This document shows, in pieces, positions 13,932 through 63,616 of a DNA stretch of 64,000 nucleotides. The position numbers were made by a program, and so were the translations under genes. The stretch comes from Bacteroidetes bacterium RIFCSPLOWO2_12_FULL_37_12 (lineage in GTDB: Bacteria; Bacteroidota; Bacteroidia; 2-12-FULL-37-12): assembly GCA_001769655.1 (NCBI GenBank), contig MEPC01000020.1, forward strand, positions 1 to 64,000, read 5' to 3'. Each line of letters begins with the position of its first letter. Within the stretch, counting starts at the first letter, position 1. Under the pieces are notes generated by a model. That model worked only from the letters and a program-made list of their open reading frames with translations, had not been told where the DNA came from and ran no database searches.

Positions 13932-13959
13932 GAAAAGTGATAAGTGAAAAATGAAAAGT
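13932..13959. repeat. heptamer tandem repeat (x4) abutting the CHASE2 gene start
   Basis: Four 7-bp units GAAAAGT, GATAAGT, GAAAAAT, GAAAAGT fill the whole gap between the adenine deaminase stop codon and the CHASE2 start codon. The first unit touches the start codon. Confidence 0.7.
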
Positions 13960-15587
13960 TATCCAACAAAAACATTCTTAAATCTAAACGTTCTCCCGTC
14001 AAACAGCCCTTTGTCACTCAGTTTCAGTTCCGGTATTACTAATAGCGCCATAAAAGACAATGTCATGTAAGGGGCTTTTAGTTTAGAGCCGAGTTTTTTA
14101 GCGGCTTGAGAAAGTTCCTGGTATTTTTTTGCAATCTCTTTGGCTGGTTTCGGCGACATGATGCCTCCTATGGGTAAACCAAGTATTATTTCCTTTTTAC
14201 CGTTTATAAGTGAAATTCCGCCTTTTTCTCTGATAATCAAGTTACAGGCACGACTGATTGAATCATCATCAGCGCCTGTTGCAATAATATTGTGACAATC
14301 GTGTGCCACCGAGGAAGCAATGGCGCCTCTTTTTAATCCAAAGTTTTTGATAAATGCAACGGATGGTGGAGAAGGTTTGTACCGGTTCAACACTGTTAGT
14401 TTCAGAATATCTCTTTTAGTGTCACTGCAAACTTCGCCATTAAGAATGAATGGTTCCATTTCCAAACAACGCGTGACAAGTTGTTCATCCAACGCTGATA
14501 TGACATTTATTTTTCCGGGCTTTGCTTTTATTTTAAAATCACGCGGCTTGGTTTTTCTGCATTTGAAATTATTCTGAATTTCCGGTTTTTGGGGAGGAAT
14601 AAAACACTTTCCTCTTTCAGCAACTAATTCTCCGTTAATATAGGTTTGTAAAACATTAAAATCCCGGAGGTCTTCTGTAATAATAAAATCAGCAGGGTCA
14701 CCTTGTCTGAGAAATCCGGTATTAATTTTATAGTGCTGTGCGGGATTCCAGGAAGCTATTCTCAAAACGTCAAATAAATTTTTTCCCATGGAAACAGAAC
14801 GTGCCACTAATTTATTTATATGTCCTTCCAGAAAATCGTCGGGATGTTTGTCATCGGAACAAAACATAAGCTTATGCGGGTGAGAATCAATCAAGGGAGC
14901 CAATGCGGAAAAATTCCTGGCGGCGGAGCCATCGCGTATGATTATTTTCATTCCATATTTCAGCTTATCCAGCGCTTCTTCCAATGTAAAACATTCATGG
15001 TCGGTGCTTATGCCGCCTTGAATATATTTTTTTGCCTGAAGCCCTTTTAATCCGGGAGCATGCCCATCCACCGGAAATCCAAATTTTTTTGCAACGGCAA
15101 TTTTTGCAAGACATTCCGGATCTTTTTGGATTACCCCGGGCCAATTCATAAATTCAGCGAGGTAGCTTAATTCCCCCTGTTGAAAAAGCGTTTCAATATT
15201 TCCGGCGGTAATTTCAGCGCCGGCTGTTTCAAAATTAGTTGCGGGCACACAGGAAGGCACGCCGAAATAAAATTTGAAATTTACTTTTCGTCCTTCTGCC
15301 AGCATGTACTTTATTCCTTTGACGCCAAGTACGTTTGCTATTTCATGAGGGTCCGATACGGTGGCGACTGTACCGTGTGACACCGCAACACGCGCAAATT
15401 CAGCAGGCGGCATCATGGAACTTTCCACATGAATATGCGCATCAATAAAACCGGGAAGAATAAAATTACGGGAGTGACACTTCTTTTTTTTGATAGAAAC
15501 AATTTTTCCGTCAGCCACAAAAATTTCACCCTGATAAATTTCGCGGGAAAAAATGTTAACAATGTTTCCGGAAATGGTAAAAGACAT
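13959..15587 (-). CDS. ade: adenine deaminase
   Basis: This 542-residue amidohydrolase is predicted to convert adenine to hypoxanthine and ammonia in purine salvage. It shows the amidohydrolase metal motif H51-x-H53 within GFIDAHIHVESS, the family stretch GTVATVSDPHEIANV, a later FGFPVDGHAPGL and CSDDKHPDD, and the conserved C-terminal domain (SSVAHDCHN, LPIGGIMS). Length is that of Ade. It lies 11 bases from the upstream MORN gene and 27 bases from the CHASE2 gene downstream, so the three may be one minus-strand transcript. Four of its five GTGNCAC sites fall in frames that give different amino acids. Confidence 0.93.
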   Translation of the reverse strand: MSFTISGNIVNIFSREIYQGEIFVADGKIVSIKKKKCHSRNFILPGFIDAHIHVESSMMPPAEFARVAVSHGTVATVSDPHEIANVLGVKGIKYMLAEGRKVNFKFYFGVPSCVPATNFETAGAEITAGNIETLFQQGELSYLAEFMNWPGVIQKDPECLAKIAVAKKFGFPVDGHAPGLKGLQAKKYIQGGISTDHECFTLEEALDKLKYGMKIIIRDGSAARNFSALAPLIDSHPHKLMFCSDDKHPDDFLEGHINKLVARSVSMGKNLFDVLRIASWNPAQHYKINTGFLRQGDPADFIITEDLRDFNVLQTYINGELVAERGKCFIPPQKPEIQNNFKCRKTKPRDFKIKAKPGKINVISALDEQLVTRCLEMEPFILNGEVCSDTKRDILKLTVLNRYKPSPPSVAFIKNFGLKRGAIASSVAHDCHNIIATGADDDSISRACNLIIREKGGISLINGKKEIILGLPIGGIMSPKPAKEIAKKYQELSQAAKKLGSKLKAPYMTLSFMALLVIPELKLSDKGLFDGRTFRFKNVFVG

Positions 15588-15598
15588 GAGGGAGAAAT

Positions 15599-16681
15599 TT
15601 AATAATTTGCTTCTGTAATCCTCTTTCCATAGTTATATTTCACAGTAGCTACTTTTTTCCCATCTATTGAAAAAAAATCAACATCTCCATGTTTGTAACC
15701 GTTCACATAAAAACCTGCCTCCATGACGCTTTCTACATTCTTATGATAAATTTTATAAGGTCCGTTCTCTACATCGTTTTCAAAAGTTGTCTCGGAAACA
15801 GGAAATCCGCCTGGTAGAAATTTTTTTTCAATTCCATTCTTTTTACCTCTGATAAAATTCATCACATATTCTTCTTTTTCGTTAGTATAATAATAAATAT
15901 AGGTTCCCTGCAATTGCCCGAAGGAATAATTAAACTTTTCTTTTATTTTTCCATTTTTGTGGAATTTGAATCCTTCACCATTTAGCACACTGTCTTTAAA
16001 ATTCAAAACGGAATCGGGTGTGCCATCGGGGAAAAAGTATTTATATAATCCATCCAACACTCCGGAGGTATAATTTTTTTCACATTTGAGAGTGCCATCG
16101 GGATAATATTCATACGCGGGACCCGAAAGAAATTTTCCGGTTTTATCATATTGAAAAACACTTTCCTTAGTTCCGTTTTTGTAAAATGTGCAAGTGTAAC
16201 CGTTTGGCAACGGTGTTCTTTCAAGCAATAACCTTCCACCCCAATCCCATTCTTTTCCTTCAACGGTGTCACCATAAAAAACAGTGTATTCACGGGCTTT
16301 TATGCCATTTTGATGAAAAAATTGCTGAGCACCTTTTAGACGACCGTACTCAAAATTTTTAACGGATTTTATGATAGAACCTGAAGGATAGAAACTCTTT
16401 TGTTCCCCATGCAGAAGCTCAATGTTTTTCAATTTTTTCTTACCTTGCAATACGGAAGCAATGGAGTCCTTTAAAAATATTTTTTTAGGTTGAGTCCCAA
16501 CTAAATTTTCAATTTGTTGTTTGAGCATATCATCGGGTTGCCCGGCAGGAATGGATAGCCACTTTACTATCAAACTCTCCGCTACTTTGTTTTTGTCCTG
16601 GGCAAAGAGAATGTTTGAACAGAATAGGCAAAAGGAAATGCAAAAAGAAAGCAGTAACTTTATGGTTGTTTTCAAAAACAT
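15599..16681 (-). CDS. exported MORN/YwqK-like repeat protein
   Basis: The 360-residue protein has a signal peptide (about 1-27, ending LFAQ). From about residue 80 onward there are tandem 20-25-residue repeats of the form YYPDGTLKxExNYxxGxLxGxYKYF, the MORN-2 or YwqK pattern. Such proteins are often labelled toxin-antitoxin YwqK antitoxins; the exported form here is more likely an envelope protein of unknown role. The start codon (16679-16681, reverse) overlaps the start codon of the divergent lipoprotein gene at 16680. Confidence 0.75.
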   Translation of the reverse strand: MFLKTTIKLLLSFCISFCLFCSNILFAQDKNKVAESLIVKWLSIPAGQPDDMLKQQIENLVGTQPKKIFLKDSIASVLQGKKKLKNIELLHGEQKSFYPSGSIIKSVKNFEYGRLKGAQQFFHQNGIKAREYTVFYGDTVEGKEWDWGGRLLLERTPLPNGYTCTFYKNGTKESVFQYDKTGKFLSGPAYEYYPDGTLKCEKNYTSGVLDGLYKYFFPDGTPDSVLNFKDSVLNGEGFKFHKNGKIKEKFNYSFGQLQGTYIYYYTNEKEEYVMNFIRGKKNGIEKKFLPGGFPVSETTFENDVENGPYKIYHKNVESVMEAGFYVNGYKHGDVDFFSIDGKKVATVKYNYGKRITEANY

Positions 16682-16847
16682 GAAATCTAAATGGCTTTAT
16701 TTTTTTAGAAAGATTAAAAGGAGATTTCCGGTTATCCTTTTGTTTATACTGGTTTTTTCTATTGCAGAAAGTTGTTATTCACCCAAGAGAAATCTCTATA
16801 AACAACGAAAAAAATATAAACCGCTACCTTGTATTTGTGATAAATAA
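16680..16847 (+). CDS. small predicted lipoprotein
   Basis: A 55-residue protein begins at an internal ATG: basic N-terminus (KSKWLYFFRKIKRR), a hydrophobic stretch and a lipobox ending IAESC at residue 32, then a short basic tail (SPKRNLYKQRKKYKP). The composition is typical of tiny Bacteroidota lipoproteins. The sequence CATG at 16679-16682 carries both this start and the start of the divergent MORN gene, so each must be transcribed from inside the other. It ends 8 bases from the convergent secDF stop. Confidence 0.6.
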   Translation: MKSKWLYFFRKIKRRFPVILLFILVFSIAESCYSPKRNLYKQRKKYKPLPCICDK

Positions 16848-16854
16848 AAAAATA

Positions 16855-19854
16855 TTATTGTCCCTGTTTCATCAATTTATTCTTAGTAGTTTCCAACAAC
16901 AACGGTGTGGCAATAAAGAGGGAGGAATACGTTCCAAAGACAACGCCTATGATAAGCGCAAAGCTGAATCCCTTCAAGACCTCACCACCCATTAAATAAA
17001 GAATTACTACTACAATCAAAGTTGTTAATGCTGTGTTAATGGTTCTGCTGAATGTACGATTTACCGCTTCATTTATCGTATCGGCGAGATTTGCACGCGG
17101 ATGTTCCTGAAGATGTTCCCTGATCCGGTCAAAGATGATAACCGTGTCATTAATGGAATACCCGATTACGGTTAAAACGGCGGCTACAAATGCCTGGTCC
17201 ACTTCGTAAAAAGTACCAAAGAGTCCTACAATGCCAAAACAGGCAAATACCATTAATACATCATGGAAAAGTGCGATCGTTGCCCCAAAACCAAACTGCC
17301 ATTTATGAAAACGAATCAGAATATAAATGAAAATTACCAATAAAGAAAGTACGGTGGCATATTTAGAACTGGAAGAAATATCATCTGCAATAGTGGAACC
17401 CACTTTCTGGGTTTCCAGAATTTGAGGATTAAACCCGGCGTATTGCCCCAAGCCATTCATCAGAGCTGTCTCCACTTTTTTATCTGCTGATTCCGAGTTA
17501 TCATCCACAAGATAGGTCGTAATTATTTTTAATTGTTTGTTATTGTTATAGGTTTTTACTTCACAGCCGGTACCCTGAAACGCCGCTCTCAACGGTTGAC
17601 GAATTTCAGCCGCAGAAACATCTTTATCAAAAGCAACCAGATAAGATCTTCCACCCAGAAAATCAACTCCGGATTTTAATCCACCTTCCATCCAAACGGC
17701 AGTCAGACCAAACAGAATTAATGAGCCGGAAAAGATGTATGCCCATTTTCTTTTTCCAATCACATCAAATTTTGTGTTTAACATCAAATTTTTTGAAATA
17801 AATGTATCAAATTGCAAAATTTTATTATTTTCAAATTTCAAAAACCATTCAATAAAAAACCGGGAAACGAAAATAGCTGTAAAAAGTGAAGTGAGAATTC
17901 CTATCATCAATGTAACGGCAAAACCTTTGATTGGTCCTGAGCCGGTTGCATACAAAATAATTCCGATTAAAAAGGTAGTAGCGTTTCCGTCAATAATGGC
18001 TGAATACGCTCTTGAAAAGCCATCCCGTACCGAGCTTGCCATGTTTTTCCCATGTCGCATTTCTTCGCGGATACGTTCATAAATGATAACGTTTGCGTCC
18101 ACAGCCATCCCAAGAGTCAAAACGATTCCTGCAATACCCGGAAGTGTGAGCGCGGCGCCAAATTGAGAAAGAACTCCCAGAATCATAAAAACGTTTAGCA
18201 GTAATGAAAAATCAGCAAACCCACCTGATATATTATAATATAGGATCATATAAATAATGATCAGGAAAAATGCTAAAAGAAATGACCATAACCCAGCGCT
18301 GATGGATTCAGAACCAAGTGTAGGACCTACCACTGCTTCTTCGATGATATGAGTAGGAGCCGGGAGTTTACCGGCTTTAAGCACGTTGGCAAGGTCTTGT
18401 GCCTCCTCAATCGTGAAATTACCGGAGATTTGAGACCTTCCGTTAGGTATAGGTGACTGAACACGGGGAGCTGAATAGATATAGCCATCTAAAATAATAG
18501 CAATTTTTCTTCCCACATTGTCTTCGGTAAGACGCTTCCATTTTTTTGCACCCACTTTATTCATCTGCATGGATACAATGGGTTTAGCGGCATCAATGTC
18601 CTGGGTGGCATCGGTTATGACTTCTCCGGTAAGCGGCGCTTTTTTCTCACGGGTGGTTTTAAGAAAATGGATATTCAGAAATTCCGCTTTGTTGGTTCCT
18701 TCCACCGGCTTCACCTCGTATGCAAACTTCATATTAGGAGGAAATATATTTTTGGCATCGTCACCGGTTAGCATTTTATTCAACTTAGCCGTATCATTTA
18801 CCGCTACAAAACTTCCGTTTTCAGTGACACCCAACACCATAAACAAAGGATTGTTTTTCGACTGAGTTAACGAGTCGGTAGCGGTGGTATCTTTCACTGT
18901 ATCGGATGACTGTGATAGTTGTTTTTCAAAATTTTTAAGCCCTGCGGAATCTTTTTCTGCTTTGGAAATAGTATCTTTTTGGTTACTAACACTCAAGTCC
19001 TTTTCGGTAGTATCTTTTTTAACCAAGGAATTGAATAACGTGTCTTCCGTTGTTTTTTCCGTCAATTTATTTTTCTCGGCGATGGATGTATTTAATTGCT
19101 TTAATACAGGCACGAACTCTTTTGGCTCCCACACTTCAAAAAATTCCAATTTGGCAGTTCCCTGTAAAAGTTTTCTAACCCGTTCAGGATTATCAACGCC
19201 GGGCAATTCAATATAAATCCGGCTGGTGCCCTCAATTTTCTGAATGTTCGGTTGAGAAACGCCAAATTTATCTATACGGGTTTTGATAACTTCAAAAGCA
19301 ATGTCTATGGAACTTTGGATTTCTTTCATAAGGTACTTTATTACCTGAGCATTTGTGGAATTATAATTTATGTATTCTTTGTTGGAAGCATTCTGAAAAA
19401 TGATGCTCAGACGCGCCTGGGGGTCTAATTGCTCAAAACTTTTTTCGAAAAGCACTAAGTAATCTTCTGTGCTGTTTTTCTGGGCATTCAACGCTTCGGT
19501 TAACGCTTTTTGAAAGGTGGGGTCCGGGTTGTTGCCCGAGAGGATTTTAAGTAATTCTACGGTGGACACTTCTAACATTACACTCATGCCGCCCTGAAGG
19601 TCCAACCCAAGATTTAATTCTGTTTCCTTCACTTCCTTATAGGTAAATTCCATACCAACCAGGTTAAAAACCGGTTTTTTCCAAACGGAGTCAAGGTATG
19701 CCTGTTTTTTGGAATTATCAATAACGCCATTTACAGTGGCGTGCTCATTTGCATCTTTAACCACTCCGCGGGAAACAAATGTAAATGAAAGGTAGTACGC
19801 GCTCATAAGTATAAGGATGAGCGAAACGACAATGACGGTGGTTTTATTTTGCAT
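16855..19854 (-). CDS. secDF: protein translocase subunit SecDF (fused)
   Basis: The 999-residue membrane protein joins SecD and SecF, the proton-driven Sec accessory that pulls exported proteins out on the far side of the membrane. SecD features: an N-terminal TM, GLDLQGGMSVMLEV at about 80-93, a large periplasmic domain with an inserted Ser/Thr/Lys-rich stretch (about 245-330), a P1-like part and the TM block with GIAGIVLTLGMAVDANVIIYERIREE. SecF begins at about 700 (GVDFLGG, VIGYSINDTVIIFDRIRE). Fusion is usual in Bacteroidota. It has its own promoter facing nuoA. Export through Sec precedes T9SS, which the neighbouring cargo genes need. Confidence 0.95.
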   Translation of the reverse strand: MQNKTTVIVVSLILILMSAYYLSFTFVSRGVVKDANEHATVNGVIDNSKKQAYLDSVWKKPVFNLVGMEFTYKEVKETELNLGLDLQGGMSVMLEVSTVELLKILSGNNPDPTFQKALTEALNAQKNSTEDYLVLFEKSFEQLDPQARLSIIFQNASNKEYINYNSTNAQVIKYLMKEIQSSIDIAFEVIKTRIDKFGVSQPNIQKIEGTSRIYIELPGVDNPERVRKLLQGTAKLEFFEVWEPKEFVPVLKQLNTSIAEKNKLTEKTTEDTLFNSLVKKDTTEKDLSVSNQKDTISKAEKDSAGLKNFEKQLSQSSDTVKDTTATDSLTQSKNNPLFMVLGVTENGSFVAVNDTAKLNKMLTGDDAKNIFPPNMKFAYEVKPVEGTNKAEFLNIHFLKTTREKKAPLTGEVITDATQDIDAAKPIVSMQMNKVGAKKWKRLTEDNVGRKIAIILDGYIYSAPRVQSPIPNGRSQISGNFTIEEAQDLANVLKAGKLPAPTHIIEEAVVGPTLGSESISAGLWSFLLAFFLIIIYMILYYNISGGFADFSLLLNVFMILGVLSQFGAALTLPGIAGIVLTLGMAVDANVIIYERIREEMRHGKNMASSVRDGFSRAYSAIIDGNATTFLIGIILYATGSGPIKGFAVTLMIGILTSLFTAIFVSRFFIEWFLKFENNKILQFDTFISKNLMLNTKFDVIGKRKWAYIFSGSLILFGLTAVWMEGGLKSGVDFLGGRSYLVAFDKDVSAAEIRQPLRAAFQGTGCEVKTYNNNKQLKIITTYLVDDNSESADKKVETALMNGLGQYAGFNPQILETQKVGSTIADDISSSSKYATVLSLLVIFIYILIRFHKWQFGFGATIALFHDVLMVFACFGIVGLFGTFYEVDQAFVAAVLTVIGYSINDTVIIFDRIREHLQEHPRANLADTINEAVNRTFSRTINTALTTLIVVVILYLMGGEVLKGFSFALIIGVVFGTYSSLFIATPLLLETTKNKLMKQGQ

Positions 19855-19889
19855 GGCTGGCTGAAGTAAGGGGCTTTTTTAAAAGGTGG

Positions 19890-19919
19890 CAAATTTAGGT
19901 TTTATTTGTCAATTATCAA
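19890..19919 (-). promoter_or_regulatory. Bacteroidota-type promoter of secDF
   Basis: Read on the minus strand: TTG (19919-19917), 19-base spacer, TAAATTTG (19897-19890), an exact fit to TTG-N19-TAnnTTTG. It lies 36 bases upstream of the secDF ATG. Confidence 0.65.
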
Positions 19920-19980
19920 TGTGTTACTTTGGAATGTATGGTTCATTCCTTATTTCCTTTTTTCTTACCCCTTTTTTTCG

Positions 19981-19988
19981 TACCTTTG
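19981..19988 (+). promoter_or_regulatory. -7 element for the nuo cluster
   Basis: TACCTTTG matches TAnnTTTG exactly and lies 25 bases before the nuoA start codon. No TTG is present at the expected upstream distance, so the -33 part is weak. Confidence 0.45.
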
Positions 19989-20013
19989 GGATTTGATATA
20001 AATACATTCCAAT

Positions 20014-20373: not shown

Positions 20374-20500
20374 GGATTTTTGATTTTTAATTGAATGTGT
20401 CTTGGAAACACTTAGTAATTTTTTATTATATGTTATATGTTAATTATTTTTTAATTTAGAATTTTATAATAGAACTGAAAAGTAAAAATTTTCAAATAAG

Positions 20501-21043: not shown

Positions 21044-21064
21044 GGGGTAGAAAAAAGTTAAAAG

Positions 21065-21105
21065 TTTTAAGTTAAAAGATATTGGCTTTATTTTTTAACT
21101 TAAAA
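21065..21105. repeat. inverted repeat and heptamer-like leader before nuoC
   Basis: TTTTAAGTTAAAA (21065-21077) and TTTTAACTTAAAA (21093-21105) are inverse copies with a 15-base loop. The bases from here to the nuoC start (21132) can be read as loose 7-bp units of the ACTT/AAGTT type. Confidence 0.5.
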
Positions 21106-21131
21106 GTTAAAACTTTTCACTTATAACTTTC

Positions 21132-21635: not shown

Positions 21636-21676
21636 GAGAGTGTAATTTCTAATATTTTAAATTTTCTGATATTTAC

Positions 21677-22870: not shown

Positions 22871-22916
22871 GTTAGTCATTAGTAATTGGTCATTGGACAT
22901 TAGGCATTGATCATTA

Positions 22917-23049
22917 AATAGTAATACAAATGGTAAAACAATGGTAAAACAATGGTAATACAATCGTGTTACAACCGTATTACAATTGTATTACAACCGT
23001 ATTACAAAAGTATTACGACCGTATTACAACCGTATTTCAACTGAATAAC
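22917..23049. repeat. 11-bp tandem repeat (about 12 units) ending at the nuoE start
   Basis: Units of the type AACCGTATTAC or AATGGTAAAAC run from 22917 to 23049 with one 1-base slip. Only one base separates the array from the nuoE ATG at 23051, and the nuoE start context ATGGTAAC itself resembles a unit. The 46 bases before it hold another word-like repeat (TCATT, AGTAATTGG, CATTGGACATTAGG). Confidence 0.8.
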
Positions 23050-38148: not shown

Positions 38149-39252
38149 ATGTTGAACAAAGAGAAATCCCGCAGTATTGCGGAAAAAAAATTATTTTTAT
38201 CATTAGTAGGATTATTTGTGTCTATCGGCTTATTGCAAGCCCAAAACGACACCATGTATATTATGAAAGCTGGAAGTGTAATATACAAGCAAAAGATAAC
38301 CAATATTGACAGTGTTATTTTTTACAATTTATTGCAAGTCCAGACCGACACCCTGTATATTATGAAAGCGGGAAGCGTAATATACCAGCAAAAGGTTACC
38401 AATATTGACAGTGTTATTTTTTACAATCCCGGAACCAACCCCGGTATTAACATTACCACCGTTCAAATCCCCGGCGGCACATTTACTATGGGTAGCCCTG
38501 TCAGCGAAGTAAATCATGAATCTAATGAAACTCAATATCAGGTAACGCTTACTGCATTTAAAATGAGCAAGTACGAGATTACCAATGCTCAATATGCGGC
38601 TTTTCTTAATACCAAAAGCATAGGTAGCAATGGGCTTTATACCGGAGGAACATACCCTTTCAAGACATTGATTTATGCCACTTCGGGAAGTTATGACTGG
38701 GGTTTACATTATACCGGTGGGCAGTGGCTCCCGGTAACCGGTTACGAAAATAACCCTGTAATTAAAGTAACTTGGTATGGAGCAGCGGAATTTGCAACCT
38801 ACGCAGGTGGACGTTTGCCCACGGAAGCCGAATGGGAATATGCTTGCCGCGGCAATACCACTACTCCATTTAATACCGGTAATTGTTTAAGCGATGTTCA
38901 AGCCAATTACCTTTGGGTTTATCCTTATAACACTTGCACAAATACCAATACTACTTATCCGTTCAAAACCCAGCCGGTAGGTACATACACAGCAAATAGT
39001 TATGGTTTGCATGATATGCATGGCAATGTTTTGGAATGGTGCAACGATTTGTTGGGAACCTATCCTACCACCGCACAAACCAACCCTACAGGCGCTGTTA
39101 CGGGTTCGGAACGCGTGTTTCGTGGCGGTAGTTGGTACAGCAATGCTCAGGCATGCCGTTCTGCTTATCGCAACGGTATGCTCCCTGGCAGCAACGACAG
39201 GATAGGGTTTCGTGTGGTCGGTCCCGTAGTTCACTGTTTAGCTTTGAGCTAA
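38149..39252 (+). CDS. formylglycine-generating-enzyme-fold secreted protein, DGR-target-like
   Basis: A 367-residue protein; the ATG at 38149 is chosen because it precedes a signal peptide (residues about 1-32, ending LLQAQ). Two near-identical 33-residue repeats follow (DTMYIMKAGSVIYKQK and DTLYIMKAGSVIYQQK). Residues about 105-358 are an FGE/SUMF1 C-type-lectin fold (IPGGTFTMGSP, MSKYEITNAQYAAFL, RLPTEAEWEYACRG, GLHDMHGNVLEWC). The C-terminal R325-GGSW ... GFRVV segment has the layout of a variable region of diversity-generating retroelements, with codons TAC, AGC, CTC, GGC and GAC where AAC is usual. No reverse transcriptase or template repeat is in the window. True FGE catalytic function is not implied. 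Confidence 0.85.
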   Translation: MLNKEKSRSIAEKKLFLSLVGLFVSIGLLQAQNDTMYIMKAGSVIYKQKITNIDSVIFYNLLQVQTDTLYIMKAGSVIYQQKVTNIDSVIFYNPGTNPGINITTVQIPGGTFTMGSPVSEVNHESNETQYQVTLTAFKMSKYEITNAQYAAFLNTKSIGSNGLYTGGTYPFKTLIYATSGSYDWGLHYTGGQWLPVTGYENNPVIKVTWYGAAEFATYAGGRLPTEAEWEYACRGNTTTPFNTGNCLSDVQANYLWVYPYNTCTNTNTTYPFKTQPVGTYTANSYGLHDMHGNVLEWCNDLLGTYPTTAQTNPTGAVTGSERVFRGGSWYSNAQACRSAYRNGMLPGSNDRIGFRVVGPVVHCLALS

Positions 39253-54597: not shown

Positions 54598-54669
54598 AAA
54601 TTTCAGAAATGAGGGATGGTTTCTCCCAATTTTGTGTTTTGAAGCTTGCCGGTTATTGCCCTAACCCGC

Positions 54670-54700: not shown

Positions 54701-54718
54701 ATTTATTTTTCACAGGTA

Positions 54719-54761
54719 GGTTTAAGTACCTGCCGCACAATCTGAGCGACATACTTAAACC
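54719..54761 (-). terminator. hairpin behind the longer LysM gene
   Basis: GGTTTAAGTA (54719-54728) pairs exactly with TACTTAAACC (54752-54761). The word CCGCACAATC occurs twice, inside the loop and beyond the stem. It lies 18 bases after the stop of the longer LysM gene. Confidence 0.5.
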
Positions 54762-54779
54762 AGGTACCGCACAATCCGT

Positions 54780-57700
54780 TTACTTTATCTTTCTGATTTT
54801 CAGCGCTTCCCCAATCTGAATGCTCATTTCCGGTTTTTCATTCCAGTCGAGAATTTCTGAAACCTTGCAGTTGTATTGTCTGGCAATAGAGTAGAGCGTT
54901 TCTCCCTGGCTTACGGTATGATTTATAATATCAAACTTTGATTGATCGGCAAAGGCAATGGTAAGACGTTGTCCGGGTTCGATGGTGTATGAACTCAGCC
55001 GGTTAATTCTCATAATTTCATTTACTGTTGTATGATATTTATTGGCAATCTGAAAAATTGTCTCCCCATCCTTTACTGAATACAAGGTAATTTTCATACC
55101 CGGGTCAGGAAGATAATTTCCGGTATCCGGTAAATTGTAATTAGTTTTTTCAGGAGGAATATTTGTGTTTGTAAATGAAACAGCAGAGGGTTCGGGAGTT
55201 TTTGTTGATGAAACAGCAGGGGATTCGGGTGTTTTTTCGACTTTAGCAATTTCCGGATTAGTAACCCAAATAATCTGTCCGGGTTTTAATGCAGATGTTT
55301 TCAGGTTATTCCATGTTTTAATTTGATCGGGAGTTACGTTATATTTTTTTGCAAGTACAGGCAACACATCTCCTGGTTTTACTTTATGTTTGCCGGGTTC
55401 CGCTGTGGGATCGCTGATTTTTAAAACCTGCCCTTTAACAACTGCCATTGTTTTCAAGTTATTCCATGTTTTCAATTCTACAGGAGTGACACTGTATTTT
55501 TTGGCTATGGTCATTAGATTTTCACCTTGCATTGCCGTATGCTCGGCTGGTTTTGATGATGATGAGATAGGATTATTTGTTTGTGTAACCACGGGTGGTT
55601 GGGTAGCCGCAAGAGATGCGCCAGCGGGTTTACGGGAAACAGCAGGCATTTCTCCAACAATTAATTGTTCCCCAACGGTGATATCGTTTCCGGTAATATT
55701 ATTCCATTGCCTGATTTTATCAATGGAAACATTATATTTTTTTGAAATTCCAAATAACGTTTCCTTGATTTCTACAATATGGAATTTTTTGTCGTTATCC
55801 GTTTGTTGTTGTGAAACCGTTTGTTGTGCAACCGTTTGTTTTTGGACAACCGCGGGTTTTTGTATAGCCGCCGGTTTTTGTGTAACCGCAGGTGTTGTCC
55901 CGGCGGATGTTGATTGAATACGGATTTTTTGTCCTACAAAAACATGATTATTGGGTAAATTATTAATGCGCATTAACTCATCCACCGGAACACTATATTT
56001 CTGTGAAATGCGGAATAAATTATCGCCGGGAATAACAACGTAAAATCCTGATTTTTCAATTTTACCATTATCTGATTCACTCACTGTTTCAGTATTTACC
56101 AATGAAATATCCTGCTCTTCACCTCCTGAAACCCTTAACATTTGCCCAACAGAAAGATCGGGATTTCCCAACTTATTCCATGCCATCAATTGATTGATGG
56201 AACTTTTATAGAGCACGGATATTCTCCATAACGTTTCTCCTTTCATAACCTTATGAAAAACAGGTTTTGCTCCCATGTTTTCTTTTGGGTCACGGATTAA
56301 TAATTTCATTCCAACCTCTTTGGCATTGGCTGAAAGATTATTCCAAAGTAAAATTTGTTTAATGGTGCATTTGTATTTTGATGCAATGATAAACAATGAT
56401 TCCCCTTGTTTCCATTCATGATACCTGACTCCATCCGGAACAGAGGGAACGGTTTTGGTTGATTTCTTTGTGTTTGTCTTCGGCTCTGGTTTCTGGATGG
56501 TTGTATTTTTTTGTACAACAGGTTCCTTTTTTTTAATCTCTTCTTTCTTAGCTTCAGCAATGGGTTTGTCAGGAATTGTTTTTTCCGGCTTTATAGGATT
56601 ATCCGGTTTTATTTCTGTTTTTTCGGATAGATCCTTCTCTACGGTGTTAGTCGTTTTATAATTTGCGATGGCGGAATCTATGGATGGGAAAGAATCCGGT
56701 TTTGAATCTAACGAATAAACATAAACTTTTTCGTTCGGCGCAGGAGTGTCACTACTTGCAGGGGTTTCTGCTTTTATATCCGTGTCACTCAGAGCGACTG
56801 CGTTGGTATCGGATTCATCGTGCAGGGATATTTCGTCAAAACGGTTTTCTCTGATATTAATCAACATTTCAATTCCAACGGAATCCGGGCGTTGTTCCTT
56901 TAACCATAATTTCTGACCCATTTTAGGTTCTTCAGCCAGAGAAATCTCTGTGGCTTCTTTTAATTTGTTGTATTTTCTGATTAAGGAACTTTCTACGCCG
57001 AAGTTTTGAGAAATCCTCCAGAGGTTTTCGCCCAGTTTAACAATATGAAACCTAGGCAAATAAGTATGTGGTTTTTTATGCTTTCGTTCCAAGTAACAAA
57101 TCTGACCATGGTACATGGGATTCAAGGGTCCTAATTCATTGTATTCTTTTAGTTTTTCCGTAGTAATTTTCCCATCAACTGCCAGTTTTTCGTAGGTATC
57201 TCCTATTTTTGCCTGAATGGCACTAAGTCCGTTTTTAGTCATTAAAACAGGGTTCGGATTATTGGAATATAGTTCCCTCGGAATGTAATTAGTTACTCCT
57301 GGAACAGAAACGAGTGGAATAAAAACAGTGTAAGGTTTTCCTCCAGGGATTTTTACTGTTTTTAACCATTTATTGTAAGCAAAAACGGAGTCAAGATCCA
57401 CTTGGTTATTCAACGCAATTTCCTGGATAGTTTGACCCTTAACCGCTTTATATTCGAAAAGAATTACTCTAGGGTCGGCTGTGGTTCCGACTCTTTTCTG
57501 AAGAGCTATTTTACAGGATATTGCCTTTATGATATACCAATGCGTCTTGGAATTAATAATCATTTTATTGGCACTATAAAATTTATAATCAGCTACCCCT
57601 ACGGCGCCTTGTAAACCGAGGTTATAAGAAAGCAAAGCGTAAATCCAATTATTAAAAGTTGCATTATTTTTTTTTAGATACTGCGATGCCGCATGGGTTG

Positions 57701-58103
57701 ATGCAATGATATGCCTTCTTTCATCCACTTCAAGACCTGCTTCAATTCCCATTTCGTTAGCTGTCTCCTTTTTCATCTGCCAGAATCCTTCTGCGCCGGA
57801 AGAAGAAACAGCATCCGAAATCAGTTTGCTTTCCATGACTGCCAGGTATTTAAAATCATCTGGAACCTTTTCTTCTTTCAAAATCTTAGAAATAATAGGA
57901 AAGTAAGTATCGGTTCTGTCAATCAATATTTTTAAATATTTTTCGTTTTGAAGATAGGTATAAGCGTTTTTTTCAATCTCGCTCGTTACATCCTGTTCAA
58001 TGACGAGCTTCACCCCGGCAAAGTCCATTTTATCCTGTGTTGTTTGAGCAGACAAGAGAATGGTGAATGATAAAAGGAAAAGTATGGCTATGGGTTTGAC
58101 CAT
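54780..58103 (-). CDS. lytic transglycosylase with nine LysM modules
   Basis: I take the ATG at 58103 (1107 residues), since it opens the signal peptide MVKPIAILFLLSF...LLSAQ; the longer frame only translates the octamer repeat upstream. The SLT/MltD-like domain (about 55-165) is better conserved than in the paralogue: AVMESKL with the catalytic Glu, then SSGAEGFWQMK and NNWIYALLSYNLG. Nine LysM modules follow, first at about 365 and the rest from about 590 to the C-terminus (for example VFHKVMKGETLWRIS). Linkers are rich in Pro, Thr, Val and Lys. It is predicted to be exported and to cleave peptidoglycan. Its 5' leader is an eight-unit octamer repeat. Confidence 0.83.
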   Translation of the reverse strand: MVKPIAILFLLSFTILLSAQTTQDKMDFAGVKLVIEQDVTSEIEKNAYTYLQNEKYLKILIDRTDTYFPIISKILKEEKVPDDFKYLAVMESKLISDAVSSSGAEGFWQMKKETANEMGIEAGLEVDERRHIIASTHAASQYLKKNNATFNNWIYALLSYNLGLQGAVGVADYKFYSANKMIINSKTHWYIIKAISCKIALQKRVGTTADPRVILFEYKAVKGQTIQEIALNNQVDLDSVFAYNKWLKTVKIPGGKPYTVFIPLVSVPGVTNYIPRELYSNNPNPVLMTKNGLSAIQAKIGDTYEKLAVDGKITTEKLKEYNELGPLNPMYHGQICYLERKHKKPHTYLPRFHIVKLGENLWRISQNFGVESSLIRKYNKLKEATEISLAEEPKMGQKLWLKEQRPDSVGIEMLINIRENRFDEISLHDESDTNAVALSDTDIKAETPASSDTPAPNEKVYVYSLDSKPDSFPSIDSAIANYKTTNTVEKDLSEKTEIKPDNPIKPEKTIPDKPIAEAKKEEIKKKEPVVQKNTTIQKPEPKTNTKKSTKTVPSVPDGVRYHEWKQGESLFIIASKYKCTIKQILLWNNLSANAKEVGMKLLIRDPKENMGAKPVFHKVMKGETLWRISVLYKSSINQLMAWNKLGNPDLSVGQMLRVSGGEEQDISLVNTETVSESDNGKIEKSGFYVVIPGDNLFRISQKYSVPVDELMRINNLPNNHVFVGQKIRIQSTSAGTTPAVTQKPAAIQKPAVVQKQTVAQQTVSQQQTDNDKKFHIVEIKETLFGISKKYNVSIDKIRQWNNITGNDITVGEQLIVGEMPAVSRKPAGASLAATQPPVVTQTNNPISSSSKPAEHTAMQGENLMTIAKKYSVTPVELKTWNNLKTMAVVKGQVLKISDPTAEPGKHKVKPGDVLPVLAKKYNVTPDQIKTWNNLKTSALKPGQIIWVTNPEIAKVEKTPESPAVSSTKTPEPSAVSFTNTNIPPEKTNYNLPDTGNYLPDPGMKITLYSVKDGETIFQIANKYHTTVNEIMRINRLSSYTIEPGQRLTIAFADQSKFDIINHTVSQGETLYSIARQYNCKVSEILDWNEKPEMSIQIGEALKIRKIK

Positions 58104-58104
58104 T

Positions 58105-58168
58105 AGGGGTATAGAGGTATAGGGGTATAGGGGTATAAGGGTATAAGGGTATAAGGGTATAAGGGTAT
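58105..58168. repeat. octamer tandem repeat (x8) abutting the LysM gene start
   Basis: Eight 8-bp units ARGGGTAT (variants AGGGGTAT, AGAGGTAT, AAGGGTAT) run without a break. One base separates the array from the start codon of the minus-strand LysM gene, so it replaces the usual ribosome-site region. Three to four copies of the same unit stand in the same place before the glycosyltransferase gene (61823). Confidence 0.85.
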
Positions 58169-58181
58169 AAATAATTGAAAT

Positions 58182-58199
58182 GACACTGTGCACCGTGTC
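58182..58199. promoter_or_regulatory. near-perfect palindrome GACAC/GTGCAC/GTGTC
   Basis: GACACTGTGCACCGTGTC is a palindrome except for one base pair. It lies in the predicted leader of the LysM gene, just upstream of the octamer array. A related GACACGGTGCACCG is in the nuoF-mqnE hairpin, so it may be a hairpin-element remnant rather than an operator. Confidence 0.4.
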
Positions 58200-58223
58200 C
58201 TTACCTGTTTTTTTGAATATCCA

Positions 58224-58231
58224 CAAAAGTA
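58224..58231 (-). promoter_or_regulatory. -7 element for the longer LysM gene
   Basis: Minus-strand TACTTTTG matches TAnnTTTG exactly. It predicts a leader of about 115 bases that includes the palindrome and the whole octamer array. No clear TTG at the expected distance. Confidence 0.4.
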
Positions 58232-58245
58232 AGGAATATATTTTT

Positions 58246-58271
58246 TTGTTTCGTAGAAATTAATATATTTG
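58246..58271 (+). promoter_or_regulatory. promoter of yifB
   Basis: TTG (58246-58248), 15-base spacer and TATATTTG (58264-58271), an exact -7 element. It overlaps the divergent LysM promoter region. It predicts a leader of about 85 bases ending in the heptamer array. Confidence 0.5.
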
Positions 58272-58312
58272 TACCGATTTTCTACTTTTTTCACCTATCG
58301 GTTCTTAATTTA

Positions 58313-58361
58313 CCAATTTCTAATAACCAATTACTAATTACTAATTTCTAATCTCTCTATC
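58313..58361. repeat. heptamer tandem repeat (x7) ending at the yifB start
   Basis: Seven 7-bp units of the type CTAATTA (CCAATTT, CTAATAA, CCAATTA, CTAATTA, CTAATTT, CTAATCT, CTCTATC) run in unbroken phase to the base before the ATG at 58362. The last unit is degenerate. Confidence 0.75.
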
Positions 58362-59963
58362 ATGAAAAACTTCTTCCAACAGTTGGAGTCAGAAGACGAG
58401 GGTCCTGTACTCACAGCCAATCTTGTAAAAACGTATGCTTCAACCGTCTATGGAGTAAATGCAATTCCCATCACCATTGAAGTAGCGGCAAGCAATGGTT
58501 TCAGAACCTACATTGTGGGACTTCCCGATGTGGCAGTGCGCGAAAGTGTTCACCGGATAAAAACTGCATTAATATCTGCAGGATTAACTTGGCCTAAACA
58601 AAGAATTGTAGTAAACATGGCGCCTGCAGATTTACGGAAAGAGGGATCAGCTTACGACCTGACACTTGCCTTAGCCATATTAGCCGCCGCTGGAAGCATA
58701 TCTGCAGAATTAATGGAACAGTATGTGATAATGGGAGAACTTTCATTAGACGGAAATGTTCAACCCATAAAAGGTTGCTTGCCTATTGCCATTCAGGCAA
58801 AAAAAGAAGGACTCAAAGGAATAATTGTACCGGCGTCAAATGCCCGGGAAGCGGCGGTTGTTGATGGAATAGATGTGTATGGAGTTGAGTCATTAAAAGA
58901 AGCCGTTGACATTATCAATAAAGAATCATCCAAATCACCAATCAAAGTAAACAGCGTTGAGCAATTTGTAAACACCTGTGATAAATACGAGGCAGATTTT
59001 TCGGATGTCCAGGGACAGGAAAACATAAAACGGGCGTTGGAAATTTCAGCCGCAGGGGGTCATAACGTAATTTTAATAGGACCTCCGGGTTCCGGTAAAA
59101 CCATGCTAGCAAAACGTCTTCCCTCTATACTTCCCCCAATGACACTGCAGGAAGCGTTGGAAACCACTAAAATTCATTCGGTAGCTGGCAGAATTTCAAA
59201 GCACGGATCTTTGATTACACGCCGCCCGTTTCGTTCGCCCCATCATACCATAAGTGATGTGGCGTTGGTGGGCGGTGGTGGCATTCCTCAGCCAGGAGAA
59301 ATATCGCTGGCACATAACGGAGTTTTATTTTTAGATGAATTACCTGAATTTAAACGGACAGTGCTGGAGGTAATGAGACAACCCCTCGAGGAGAGAAAAG
59401 TTACGATTAGCCGTGCCAGGGTTTCAGTGGATTTTCCTGCTAATTTCATGTTGGTGGCATCCATGAATCCCTGTCCGTGCGGGTTTTATAACCATCCTGA
59501 AAAAAGATGCGTCTGTCGTCAGGGAATGGTGCAACAATATTTGAACCGGATCAGCGGTCCTTTGCTCGACCGCATAGACATTCATGTAGAAGTGACACCG
59601 GTTTCATTTAACGAAATGACTTCCCAGAGGAAAAATGAGAGAAGCGTTGACGTACGCCAACGGGTGCAAAAAGCAAGGGAAATTCAAAAGAAAAGATTTT
59701 ATGAACTTAAACTTCCGCAGGTTTATTCCAATGCGATGATGAGTCCATCCTTAGTTCAGGAAATTTGTCAGACGGATGAATCCGGTAAGAAAATGTTGAA
59801 GAATGCGATGGAAAAAATGAATTTATCGGCAAGGGCATTTGACCGCATACTGAAAGTTTCGAGAACGATTGCAGATCTTTCCTGTTGCGAAAATATCCAT
59901 CCTGAACATTTAGCGGAAGCCATCCATTACAGGAATTTAGACAGGGATAATTGGGCGGGGTGA
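58362..59963 (+). CDS. YifB/ComM-family Mg-chelatase-like AAA+ ATPase
   Basis: The 533-residue protein has an N-terminal Lon-protease-like fold domain (about 20-190), the Mg-chelatase ChlI-type AAA+ core with Walker A GPPGSGKTM at about 240 and Walker B VLFLDELPEF at about 320, a Cys-rich stretch (MNPCPCGFYNHPEKRCVC) and the C-terminal helical domain. In naturally transformable bacteria the ComM relative is a helicase for branch migration of incoming DNA; the role in this phylum is less clear. It has its own promoter and a heptamer-repeat leader. Confidence 0.92.
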   Translation: MKNFFQQLESEDEGPVLTANLVKTYASTVYGVNAIPITIEVAASNGFRTYIVGLPDVAVRESVHRIKTALISAGLTWPKQRIVVNMAPADLRKEGSAYDLTLALAILAAAGSISAELMEQYVIMGELSLDGNVQPIKGCLPIAIQAKKEGLKGIIVPASNAREAAVVDGIDVYGVESLKEAVDIINKESSKSPIKVNSVEQFVNTCDKYEADFSDVQGQENIKRALEISAAGGHNVILIGPPGSGKTMLAKRLPSILPPMTLQEALETTKIHSVAGRISKHGSLITRRPFRSPHHTISDVALVGGGGIPQPGEISLAHNGVLFLDELPEFKRTVLEVMRQPLEERKVTISRARVSVDFPANFMLVASMNPCPCGFYNHPEKRCVCRQGMVQQYLNRISGPLLDRIDIHVEVTPVSFNEMTSQRKNERSVDVRQRVQKAREIQKKRFYELKLPQVYSNAMMSPSLVQEICQTDESGKKMLKNAMEKMNLSARAFDRILKVSRTIADLSCCENIHPEHLAEAIHYRNLDRDNWAG

Positions 59964-59990
59964 TGGTGGGGGGGAAGGGAGCCCTGAGTA

Positions 59991-60438
59991 AAACCTAATC
60001 CGTAAACCTAAACCTAATCCGTAAACCTAAACCTAATCCGTAAACCTAAACCTAATCCGTAAACCTAATCCGTAAACCTAATCCGTAAACCTAATTCGTA
60101 AACTTAAACCTAAACCTAATCCTAATCCGTAAACCTAATCCTAATCCGTAAACCTAATCCTAATCCGTAAACCTAATCCGTAAACCTAAACCTAATCCTA
60201 ATCCGTAATCCTAATCCGTAAACCTAATCCGTAAACCTAATCCGTAAACCTAATCCTAATCCTAATCCGTAAACCTAATCCTAATCCGTAATCCTAATCC
60301 GTAATCCTAATCCGTAATCCTAATCCGTAAACCTAATCCGTAAACCTAATCCTAATCCTTAAACCTAATCCTAATCCGTAATCCTAATCCGTAATCCTAA
60401 TCCGTAAACCTAAACCTAATCCTTAAACCTAATCCTAA
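59991..60438. repeat. AATCCGT/AAACCT mosaic repeat array (about 450 bp)
   Basis: The entire gap between yifB and the four-helix-bundle gene is built of three short words, AATCCGT (7 bp), AAACCT and AATCCT (6 bp), most often paired as the 13-bp unit AATCCGTAAACCT, in irregular higher-order order. It stops 7 bases before the ATG at 60446. The same 13-bp unit occurs in inverse orientation behind the gene (60811-60978). Confidence 0.9.
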
Positions 60439-60445
60439 TTTTAAT

Positions 60446-60805
60446 ATGAAAAAACCAAGATTTAATCACGAAAAACTTGAAGTTTATCAGAGATCCCTGA
60501 AATTTATTACATGGTTGACTGAGGTCATTGATGCCTTAAGCAGAGGGAACGGAAATATAATTGATCAAATTGATCGTGCATCAATATCTGTTGTGCTCAA
60601 CATTGCAGAAGGAAATGGAAAACATTCAAGCAAAGAACATAAAAGATATATTGAAACTGCTAAAAGTTCTGCTCTTGAATGCGCTGCTGCTCTTGACATA
60701 ATGTTCGCTAAAAAATTAATTGATGAGCAAAAATCAGAAGAAGGAAAAGAAATGACAGAGGTGATGGTAAAGATGCTTTACAAGTTAGGCGAAAGTTTGT
60801 TGTAA
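60446..60805 (+). CDS. four-helix-bundle protein (23S rRNA intervening-sequence / Avd-like family)
   Basis: A 119-residue, all-helical protein with the family hallmarks: KLEVYQRSLKFITWLTEVI, QIDRASISVVLNIAEGNGK and the later IETAKSSALECAAALDI. Members of this family are encoded in insertions in 23S rRNA genes and, as the Avd branch, assist reverse transcriptases of diversity-generating retroelements. Here it is a free-standing gene lying between two inverted arrays of the same 13-bp repeat. No rRNA or reverse transcriptase is nearby. Its role is unknown. Confidence 0.85.
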   Translation: MKKPRFNHEKLEVYQRSLKFITWLTEVIDALSRGNGNIIDQIDRASISVVLNIAEGNGKHSSKEHKRYIETAKSSALECAAALDIMFAKKLIDEQKSEEGKEMTEVMVKMLYKLGESLL

Positions 60806-60810
60806 TGTTA

Positions 60811-60978
60811 GAAGGAAAACAGAATAGGATTACGGATTAGGTTTACGGATTAGGTTTACGGATTAGGAAAACAAATTAGGAAAACAGATTAGGAAAACAG
60901 ATTAGGAAAACAGATTAGGAAAACAGATTAGGAAAACAGATTAGGAAAACAGATTAGGAAAACAGATAAAGAAAACAG
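60811..60978. repeat. 13-bp tandem repeat (x13), inverse of the left array at its start
   Basis: Thirteen units of 13 bp: a few ATTAGGTTTACGG (exact reverse complement of the left array unit) followed by ATTAGGAAAACAG copies. It begins 6 bases after the stop of the four-helix-bundle gene. The remaining 47 bases to the glycosyltransferase stop show nothing further. Confidence 0.9.
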
Positions 60979-61025
60979 AACACCCTATACCCCAATTGCG
61001 CCACCTCCTCAAGCAATACGTAACT

Positions 61026-61823
61026 TTACCCAATAATTTCTATTCCTCTTAAGCAACGGATGTTGTGCTCTTTTTGTTTTTTATGGAGTAATTCAAAATT
61101 GTATCTGACCATTTCTTCCGAATAACTTTTGGGATGATATAAATGATAAACAATTGATTTATTTTTCATTGATTTAGTTTTAATACCATTCTCTTTAAGC
61201 CGCCATTCTATATCAACATCTTCACCCACACCGGCAAAAATATAATCCATATCAAATCCATTTACATCCATCAATGACTTTTTACCTATTCCCCAATTTC
61301 TCCCAACTAATCCTCTTCCGTCCTTTTTAATACTAAGCGAAAACAAGGGGGAATAAATTCCGTCCTTGATCATTTTAGAATCAGAAAAAAGTAAAGAAAA
61401 AAAATTCAACTTTTTCAACGATTGTTTTTGTATTATCCATTCCGAAATATTCTTACCAAGCAGAACAGCCCTTCCCTCATAAATATAACCTTCCTGGATA
61501 TTTTTAAGATAGTTATTTACAAAATGTTTGTGAGGCAGACAATCGCCATCAATAAAAACCATCTTATTGGTTTTTGAATGGATGATAGATTTATTTAACA
61601 TTTCATTTTTTCTAAATCCCTTATCTTCCTTTTGATAAATGTGCGTAATGGGAAAATTAAATAACATTCTATTCTTTGAAAGAAATTCAAAGGTCTCTTC
61701 ATTATAATCATCTTCGGATAATATGACTTCAAAATTTTTATTGCTTTGCCGGGCTAATGCCCTTAAAATCAATCTCAACTTATCTAATGCCTTGTAATAG
61801 GATATTATTACGGATAATTCCAT
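61026..61823 (-). CDS. family 2 (GT-A) glycosyltransferase
   Basis: The start is set at the ATG at 61823 (265 residues): it gives the expected MELSVIISYY beginning, while the longer frame to 61880 only translates repeat sequence. GT-A features: the N-terminal nucleotide-sugar strand, SEDDYNE, the metal-binding FIDGDCLPH at about 95 and the later GVGEDVDIEWRL with its Glu-Asp acidic pair. No membrane segment, so it is cytoplasmic. Sugar and acceptor are unknown; probably cell-surface polysaccharide. Octamer repeat units stand directly before the start codon, as at the longer LysM gene. Confidence 0.88.
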   Translation of the reverse strand: MELSVIISYYKALDKLRLILRALARQSNKNFEVILSEDDYNEETFEFLSKNRMLFNFPITHIYQKEDKGFRKNEMLNKSIIHSKTNKMVFIDGDCLPHKHFVNNYLKNIQEGYIYEGRAVLLGKNISEWIIQKQSLKKLNFFSLLFSDSKMIKDGIYSPLFSLSIKKDGRGLVGRNWGIGKKSLMDVNGFDMDYIFAGVGEDVDIEWRLKENGIKTKSMKNKSIVYHLYHPKSYSEEMVRYNFELLHKKQKEHNIRCLRGIEIIG

Positions 61824-61853
61824 GGGTATAGGGGTATAAGGATATAAGGTTAT
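61824..61853. repeat. octamer repeat (x3-4) abutting the glycosyltransferase start
   Basis: Units GGGTAT (partial, sharing bases with the start codon), AGGGGTAT, AAGGATAT and AAGGTTAT have the same 8-bp consensus as the array at 58105-58168. Confidence 0.75.
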
Positions 61854-61876
61854 AAATTTAGTTCTAATTCTCAATA

Positions 61877-61974
61877 CCAAATGCTCAATACCAAATGCTC
61901 AATGCCAAATGCCCAATGCCAAATGCTCAATGTCAAATGCTCAATGTCAAATGCTCAATGCCAAATGCTCAATG
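61877..61974. repeat. 14-bp tandem repeat (x7) between mutase and glycosyltransferase
   Basis: Seven 14-bp units CCAAATGCTCAATG with few changes; each can be split in two related 7-bp halves (CCAAATG, CTCAATG). Related words (CAATGTCC, CAATGCCTAATTA) continue to the mutase stop and also occur at 22880-22915. Confidence 0.85.
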
Positions 61975-62000
61975 TCCAATGACTAATTCTCAATGCCTAA

Positions 62001-63575
62001 TTACCCCCTATACTCCCCCCACACTTTTCTGAACGTATCGCTGATTTCTCCCAACGTCACGTAGTTTTCTACCGCCTTTAAAATGTGCGGCAGAACATTT
62101 CTGTTTTCACGGGCTGAGGATTCCAGTTCAGTGACACAGGATTCCACCATTGCTTTTTCCCGGGTTGATTTCAAATGTTTTAGCTTTTCCATTTGCATTG
62201 TTCGCGCTGATTCATCAATTCTCATCCGGTTTGGGATAATAGATTCATGCTCGGAAAATTTATTGATTCCTACTACAATTTTTTCACCGCCCTCTATTTC
62301 CTTCTGGTACCGGAACGCGGATTGGGCAATTTGATTCTGAATGTAATGTTGTTCTATCGCTTTTACAGAGCCACCCATCCCATCAATCTTTTTTATTTCT
62401 GCAAGCGCTTTTTCTTCCATCTGGTCTGTAAGGGTTTCTATAAAATAAGAACCCGCCAACGGATCTACTGTATCAGTGACACCCGATTCGTGTGCTATGA
62501 TTTGCTGAGTTCGTAATGCAATTTTCACAGCTTTCTCCCCGGGCAATGAAAGTGCTTCATCAAAACTGTTGGTATGAAGTGATTGAGTGCCACCCAACAC
62601 AGCGCTTAGCGCCTGTAGCGTGACACGAACAATATTATTTTCCGGTTGTTGTGCAGTGAGTGTGGAACCACCGGTTTGTGTATGAAAACGAAGCATCAAA
62701 GATGCCGGTTCTTTAGCACCAAGTTCTTTCATCATCTTCGCCCAGATTCGCCTTGCAGAGCGGAATTTCGCTATTTCTTCAAATAAATTATTATGTGCAT
62801 TGAAAAAAAATGACATTCGTTTGGCGAATGAATCAATCGAAAGACCTTTCTCCAATGCCGCCAGCACATAAGCTTTTCCGTTTGACAATGTAAAAGCGAG
62901 TTCCTGCACAGCGGTGGCGCCTGCTTCACGTATATGATACCCTGAAATGGAAATGGTGTTCCAGCGGGGTATTTCTTTTTCACAGTATTCAAAAACATCC
63001 GTAATTAGTTTCATAGAAGGCGTTGGAGGAAAAATATACGTTCCCCTTGCGGCATATTCTTTTAAAATATCGTTCTGAACAGTGCCATTTAACTTTTTAA
63101 GGTCTGCCCCCTGTTTCTTAGCCAATGCAATATAAAATGCAAGAAGCGTGGAGGCAGTGGCATTAATCGTCATGGAAGTGGATATTGTAGCAAGTTGAAT
63201 ATCGTCAAACAAAATTTCAATGTCTTTTAAGGAATCAATTGCTACTCCGACTTTCCCGACTTCCCCTTCTGCCAACGGGTGGTCGGAATCGTACCCGATT
63301 TGAGTAGGAAGGTCAAAAGCCACCGACAATCCGGTAGTTCCTTGCTGTAATAAATATTTATAGCGCTTGTTGGATTCTTCTGCGGTGGAAAAACCTGCAT
63401 ATTGCCGCATCGTCCATAATTTTCCGCGATACATGGTAGGATGAATGCCGCGGGTATAAGGATATTCGCCGGGAATTTCTTTTTCCTTTTGAACGGGTTC
63501 GTAATACTGCTTGATTTCTATTCCGGAATCGGTATGGAAATTTTGCTTGGGGTCAGGATTTTTTTTGTGGGACAT
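62001..63575 (-). CDS. methylmalonyl-CoA mutase, large (catalytic) subunit
   Basis: The 524-residue protein is the TIM-barrel catalytic part of the B12-dependent mutases that interconvert methylmalonyl-CoA and succinyl-CoA. It has [57 protein letters not shown] and [19 protein letters not shown], close to methylmalonyl-CoA mutases. The C-terminal B12-binding domain is missing, so a small B12-binding subunit must be encoded elsewhere, as in two-subunit mutases of this type. Relatives acting on other acyl-CoAs cannot be excluded. A five-unit heptamer repeat lies 6 bases before its start. Confidence 0.9.
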
Positions 63576-63581
63576 TTATGA

Positions 63582-63616
63582 GATTTACGCTTTACGAATT
63601 ACGATTTACGCCTTAC
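63582..63616. repeat. heptamer tandem repeat (x5) before the mutase start
   Basis: Units GATTTAC, GCTTTAC, GAATTAC, GATTTAC, GCCTTAC (GNNTTAC) fill the gap between the upstream gene stop (63620) and the mutase start (63575). Confidence 0.75.

Follow-up and report, generated by a model that had tools for sequence, protein, structure and literature searches.

Strand-polar intergenic heptad arrays of a Bacteroidetes genome pair into hairpins, some of which enclose a PF05635 gene

The window analysed here is a 64,000-nt stretch (positions 1 to 64,000 of contig MEPC01000020.1) from Bacteroidetes bacterium RIFCSPLOWO2_12_FULL_37_12, the source genome, a 3.94-Mb draft in 43 contigs that is 98% complete. 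Short tandem arrays lie in many of its gaps between genes (Table 1). Pfam identifies the genes concerned as CHASE2, NuoE, LysM/SLT, a YifB-like Mg-chelatase, 23S_rRNA_IVP, a glycosyltransferase and methylmalonyl-CoA mutase; the 23S_rRNA_IVP gene is the one that an earlier note on this DNA had called a four-helix-bundle gene. The arrays which that note had described at these genes are real, each being recovered by TRF (the two that precede nuoE as a joint span, 22875-23041), and they do adjoin the ATGs, ending 0-10 nt from the called starts. A repeat of another kind, a 99-bp unit present twice at 90% (38230-38427), runs in frame (99 = 33 codons) within the gene at 38149-39252 and is probably a protein repeat. 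Rfam found no rRNA in the window.

Table 1. Tandem arrays, inverted array pairs and the PF05635 gene of the window
Feature	Position	Strand	Remarks
7-bp array	13932..13958 (TRF 13931-13959)	-	fills the whole gap from the adenine deaminase stop to the CHASE2 start
7-periodic hairpin of the GAACAAGGAATNNNGAA family	gap 12554..12710	.	score 90; arms ~40 nt
nuoB-nuoC gap, 7-periodic inverted pair AAAAGTTAAAAGTTTTAAG // CTTAAAAGTTAAAACTTTT	21044..21131	+	score 65
7-bp G-richer array	22875..22915	+	begins 4 nt past the nuoD stop; TRF
11-bp array GTAATACAAT / GTATTACAACC	22917..23041	+	C-richer towards nuoE, ends 9 nt before the ATG; TRF
8-bp array GGGTATAA x8	58107..58170	-	G-rich strand points into the divergent gap, away from the start of the LysM gene; TRF
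7/14-bp array ACCAATTTCTAATA	58310..58352	+	C-richer, 9 nt before yifB; TRF
Left array, TAAACCTAATCCG / TAATCC mosaic, 446 bp	59994..60439	+	yifB/PF05635 gap; C-rich on the + strand; TRF
PF05635 gene, 119 aa	60446..60805	+	between two inverted arrays; Pfam E=5e-22; PDB 2gsc XCC0516 E=1.4e-5
Right array, GGATTACGGATTAGGTTTACGGATTAGG then AGGAAAACAGATT units, 167 bp	60813..60979	+	convergent stops on both sides, no start nearby; TRF
GGGTATAA x4	61824..61855	-	at the glycosyltransferase start; TRF
14-bp (2x7) array AATGCTCAATGCCA	61862..61996	-	gap from the mutase stop to the glycosyltransferase start; TRF
7/21-bp array GATTTACGCCTTACCAATTAC	63582..63622	-	fills the gap upstream of the mutase gene; TRF

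Genome-scale counts come from 1.6 Mb of stretches of the source genome, with genes called by a simple codon-model caller and arrays by TRF. Intergenic DNA shows autocorrelation peaks at lag 7 (0.331) and lag 8 (0.327) over a base of 0.298, peaks that are absent from coding DNA at these lags; noncoding DNA holds 60% of the exact tandems of period 7 and 81% of those of period 8, and the latter period is about as common as the former in this genome. The units had been thought unrelated to one another, but they draw on a lexicon of 7- and 8-mers that recurs across unlinked gaps: GGGGTATA, AACCATTT, AAAATAG, AACATCC and others are repeated at unlinked loci in both orientations. The word GGGGTATA, which is related to the 8-bp unit GGGTATAA of the LysM gene array, occurs 74 times as 2.5 tandem copies in the source genome and not once in 197 other genomes of the class. 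The GAACAAGGAATNNNGAA hairpin family has 30 matches in the source genome, and 22 of 119 class genomes carry it, the source included; neighbouring copies that face each other come in + then - order, i.e. with the G-richer arm first (G-first). Members of this family lie in the window at 12554-12710 and in L014, L165 and L188. Several gaps (L170:6543-6808, L124:15586-15880) carry a different dispersed repeat of period 9, with words such as TTTGCGCC and AAAGTGCGC.

The earlier note had regarded the arrays as belonging to start codons, where one process would create or keep them, perhaps tuning leader length, and where they would take the place of a ribosome site. Placement gives little ground for this. 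When the 326 arrays of the 1.6 Mb were re-placed at random inside their own gaps, the number within 10 nt of a start was modestly exceeded in the real data (62 observed, 47.3 expected, z 2.9) and the number within 30 nt was that of chance (102 against 102.3), the larger gain being at stops, with 97 arrays within 10 nt where 54.8 were expected (z 8.4). Arrays occupy 7.3% of the noncoding sequence (coding, 1.3%), and they cover co-directional (7.8%), divergent (6.6%) and convergent (6.4%) gaps much alike. Those of the window that adjoin a start also abut the upstream stop, e.g. at 13932-13958 and 22875-22915. Nor is a ribosome site replaced, because this genome uses almost no Shine-Dalgarno sites: an SD-like word stands in 1.2% of 1148 leaders, versus 3.2% in a control window. 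The permutation and the coverage by gap type thus go against a process specific to leaders or start codons and lend no support to a tuning of leader length, while the idea of one common process at many gaps survives, as the 7/8-nt length class and, as described below, strand rule and inverted pairing hold genome-wide and in other genera. On a hairpin reading, contact with a start codon is a side effect of arms that extend to the gap edge, and the start-adjacent repeats need no leader function.

Four properties that the earlier note did not contain lead to that reading: inverted pairing, G-first polarity, the common lexicon and the enclosed PF05635 gene. Polarity follows a rule. Read 5'→3', the G-richer strand leads into the gap from whichever gene edge is nearest, whatever the direction of the gene (160/228, p=1e-9; G on the sense strand 70/91, on the antisense strand 51/82), the median distance to the gene edge under the rule being 17 nt versus 75 nt. 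Put differently, along the + strand of any gap the G-richer array tends to come first and the C-richer one second (OR 4.3, p=7e-10). Nearly every array of the window conforms, as do 54 of 65 at the nuo loci of other genomes. The rule is clearest in convergent gaps (26/34, or 20/23 for periods 7 and 8 only), so a constraint on leaders is out as its sole source. It is hardly probable, then, that the arrays are leader elements regulating translation, as has also been proposed for the TAACTGA repeats. The slight excess within 10 nt of starts and the C-richer sense orientation near them would suit such a role, but the excess vanishes within 30 nt and is stronger at stops, arrays between convergent genes keep the same polarity, and there are next to no SD sites whose place they could take.

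Inverted pairs with 7/8-periodic arms were seen in about 60 of the sampled gaps of the source genome, with a G-first ratio of 47:10. Elsewhere the periodic inverted repeats are likewise G-first (nuo loci 17:0, Spirosoma 4:0), and non-periodic ones have little or no such bias. The relatives compared all lie outside the source genome's own order; the best named matches to its NuoD (80%) come from uncultured and Cytophagaceae MAGs. In Hymenobacter, Spirosoma, Adhaeribacter and others, gaps of the nuo operon are laid out as in the source genome, with G-rich heptads following the stop, then a loop, and C-rich heptads leading up to the start. In the nuoC-nuoD gap the position of the hairpin is kept between genomes while its words differ. 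The loop is usually ~13 nt.

These hairpins might be selected at the RNA level, to terminate transcription, offer RNase III sites or couple translation, with tandem arrays as the cheapest way to obtain a stem. Many genera have hairpins from stop to start within operons, nuo for one, with position kept but words changed; this is what such selection would give, and the excess of arrays at stops fits it too. However, mismatches within the stems show no wobble signature (G-U against A-C, 53:56), a T5 run directly follows the stem in just 2/48 and 0/18 cases, which is not the form of intrinsic terminators, periodic hairpins are present in divergent gaps too, and an RNA stem does not require G-first polarity. 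Because neither a G-U preference nor a T-tract is seen, RNA-level selection and termination are not indicated, and we consider them unlikely.

The PF05635 gene of the window encodes a 23S rRNA intervening-sequence protein (S23p/IVP), a four-helix bundle. It is flanked by the window's largest array and an inverted partner, with a flank score of 112 that ranks third among 1042 genes. Each of the six PF05635 genes in the source genome lies between matched inverted arrays, in effect within the loop of a hairpin, and each has a different word; their scores are 27-112, whereas for the 1042 genes the median is 14 and the 95th percentile 23. The polarity of their hairpins is mixed: three are G-first, two C-first and one neutral.

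The same enclosure is found in other genomes. Among 30 PF05635 loci of other Bacteroidia, taken as the best-scoring matches with one per genome, 19 score at least 30, versus 0/117 shifted windows and 7/580 genes (~1%); at a threshold of 25, 23 of 27 usable loci are enclosed, G-first 21:2, a polarity that is invariant under reverse complement, these loci not being oriented to the gene strand. On plasmids, where loci were picked from the hit list to avoid duplicates and are thus a non-random set, 15/21 are enclosed (G-first 15:0) versus 3/84 windows; the plasmids are mostly from Cyanobacteria, and also from Gemmatirosa, Azospirillum and Riemerella. Outside the source genome the polarity is G-first in 36/38, and block shuffling that keeps composition gives p<=0.01 at 42/54 loci, with the statistics of all these locus counts ignoring kinship. 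The window locus and those plasmid loci that have annotated neighbours are flanked by protein genes and do not lie in a 23S rRNA helix; no PF05635 gene was found in phages. On cyanobacterial plasmids such genes split conserved operons (L284, L286, L287, L292), the sites being cas6/cas4 of a type I-D CRISPR system, nrdB/nrdA (with the gene on the opposite strand) and cas10/cmr3.

Protein and word were considered as a unit of inheritance and this was rejected: co-inheritance is seen only at >55% identity and is broken within the source genome, where two copies 69% identical (L228 and L230) have different words. Genomes with more PF05635 copies tend to have a higher array density at an unlinked locus of 20 kb (rho 0.50, p=1e-5, kinship ignored), density across genomes being measured at the named nuo loci; arrays also exist in some genomes that have no PF05635 (L104). 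A literature search found no account that links PF05635 ORFs to heptad hairpins, and we regard their enclosure by such hairpins, in several phyla, as a new finding.

Could slippage alone, with no function for its products, produce all this? Intergenic DNA would simply tolerate 7/8-nt products, and PF05635 genes would be small neutral genes that sit in repeat-rich gaps. All gap types are covered alike, arrays show no gradient of homogeneity that might be a trace of directional growth, and an excess of 7-nt repeats in bacteria has been attributed to the contact length of the polymerase (in work cited in PMC4692102). Yet neutral slippage predicts neither the polarity nor the inverted pairing of the same word, and PF05635 genes are enclosed in 63-100% of cases over several phyla versus ~1% of genes. 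As a sufficient explanation we find it improbable.

The reading that we prefer, with moderate confidence, is that each array is an arm, alone or with its partner, of an intergenic hairpin element whose construction resembles that of the intervening sequence (IVS) of 23S rRNA. What is observed is that the arrays have their period, lie between genes, draw on a dispersed lexicon, are polar and pair as inverted copies, and that in several phyla they enclose PF05635 genes; how the arrays expand and what the protein does we infer. An element would consist of a G-richer, degenerate 7/8-nt tandem array, a loop and an inverted copy of the array, and would span its gap from gene edge to gene edge. Arms may grow by strand slippage, and one arm may be copied into the opposite one by fold-back (template-switch) synthesis; together these steps would produce inverted pairs and would allow a position to be kept as its words change. 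Selection would purge arrays that extend into genes. Where they are transcribed, long stems are probably RNase III substrates, by analogy with the rRNA IVS. PF05635 either promotes or recognises the hairpins, or else colonises their loops.

Among known systems the rRNA IVS is the closest in architecture. REP-like palindromes mobilised by a RAYT (Y1 transposase) are a very unlikely source. There are 2-3 Y1_Tnp genes in the source genome, but these have no directly flanking heptad arrays, the arms do not form one conserved palindrome, and a GTAG foot, the tag of REPs, is seen at 1/48 and 0/18 stems. One such gene, L206:7437-7889 (C20:127437-127889), is flanked by the G+C-rich inverted repeats CAGGGCAACGCCCTG and CCTGAAAGGG, which are unlike the heptad arrays. 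Least of all would we expect a telomerase-like or DRT10-like reverse transcriptase that adds GT-rich repeats to DNA ends, later joined head to head. The G-first head-to-head geometry does resemble fused telomeres, and a bacterial reverse transcriptase that makes tandem-repeat DNA exists (DRT10; PMC12632851), but no PF00078 match was found in this 98%-complete genome.

The TAACTGA repeats of Beggiatoaceae and some Bacteroidetes are one word, in forward orientation upstream of starts (PMC4679880). They resemble the present arrays in being tandem heptamers near start codons in genomes with few SD sites, and differ in their word, of which the 1.6 Mb sampled has no tandem doublet. In Nostoc, the P6b stem of the tRNA-Leu(UAA) intron is built of the heptanucleotide repeats TDNGATT or NNTGAGT (PMC4476775); it likewise has arms of degenerate heptads, with the class of repeat exchanged at one position, but it is a single site within a group I intron.

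The strand rule has also been published for the G-rich heptamer arrays GGGAATC and GGGGA(C/T)T of Xanthomonas and Nostoc. According to Rehm et al. (2015; PMC4692102), there are 70-75 convergent inverted pairs per Xanthomonas genome, the G-strand lies nearer the 5' neighbouring ORF irrespective of ORF direction, and the role of these polar arrays is still to be elucidated. They share with ours the period of 7, a mostly intergenic and dispersed location, inverted pairs and the strand rule (here 160/228); they are of one G4-forming word type, whereas here there are many words, some without a G-run, periods of 8 and 11 as well, and a host in the Bacteroidota, in 1.6 Mb of which neither word has a tandem doublet. 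No link to PF05635 is noted in the passages of that paper drawn on here.

In Coxiella burnetii the 23S rRNA IVS forms a stem of 28 bp that RNase III cuts, and it carries an S23p ORF with variable GACAGAT heptads beside it (PMC4990558); the role of S23p/IVP is, according to the same paper, likewise to be elucidated. The inverted-repeat stem, the S23p/PF05635 ORF in the loop and the tandem heptads adjoining it are common to both; the present hairpins differ in being intergenic or within protein operons, in having tandem arrays as arms and in mostly lacking an ORF. A bolder and rather doubtful extension would make the rRNA IVS, the Xanthomonas/Nostoc G-rich heptamers and the present arrays one system, with PF05635 proteins as trans-acting factors of widespread hairpin elements whose heptad arms vary freely in sequence but keep a set period and polarity, and with ORF-less hairpins as the non-autonomous members. 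The occurrence of the PF05635 gene within hairpins in Bacteroidota, Cyanobacteria, Gemmatimonadota and Alphaproteobacteria offers a common, testable frame for the arrays and for S23p/IVP.
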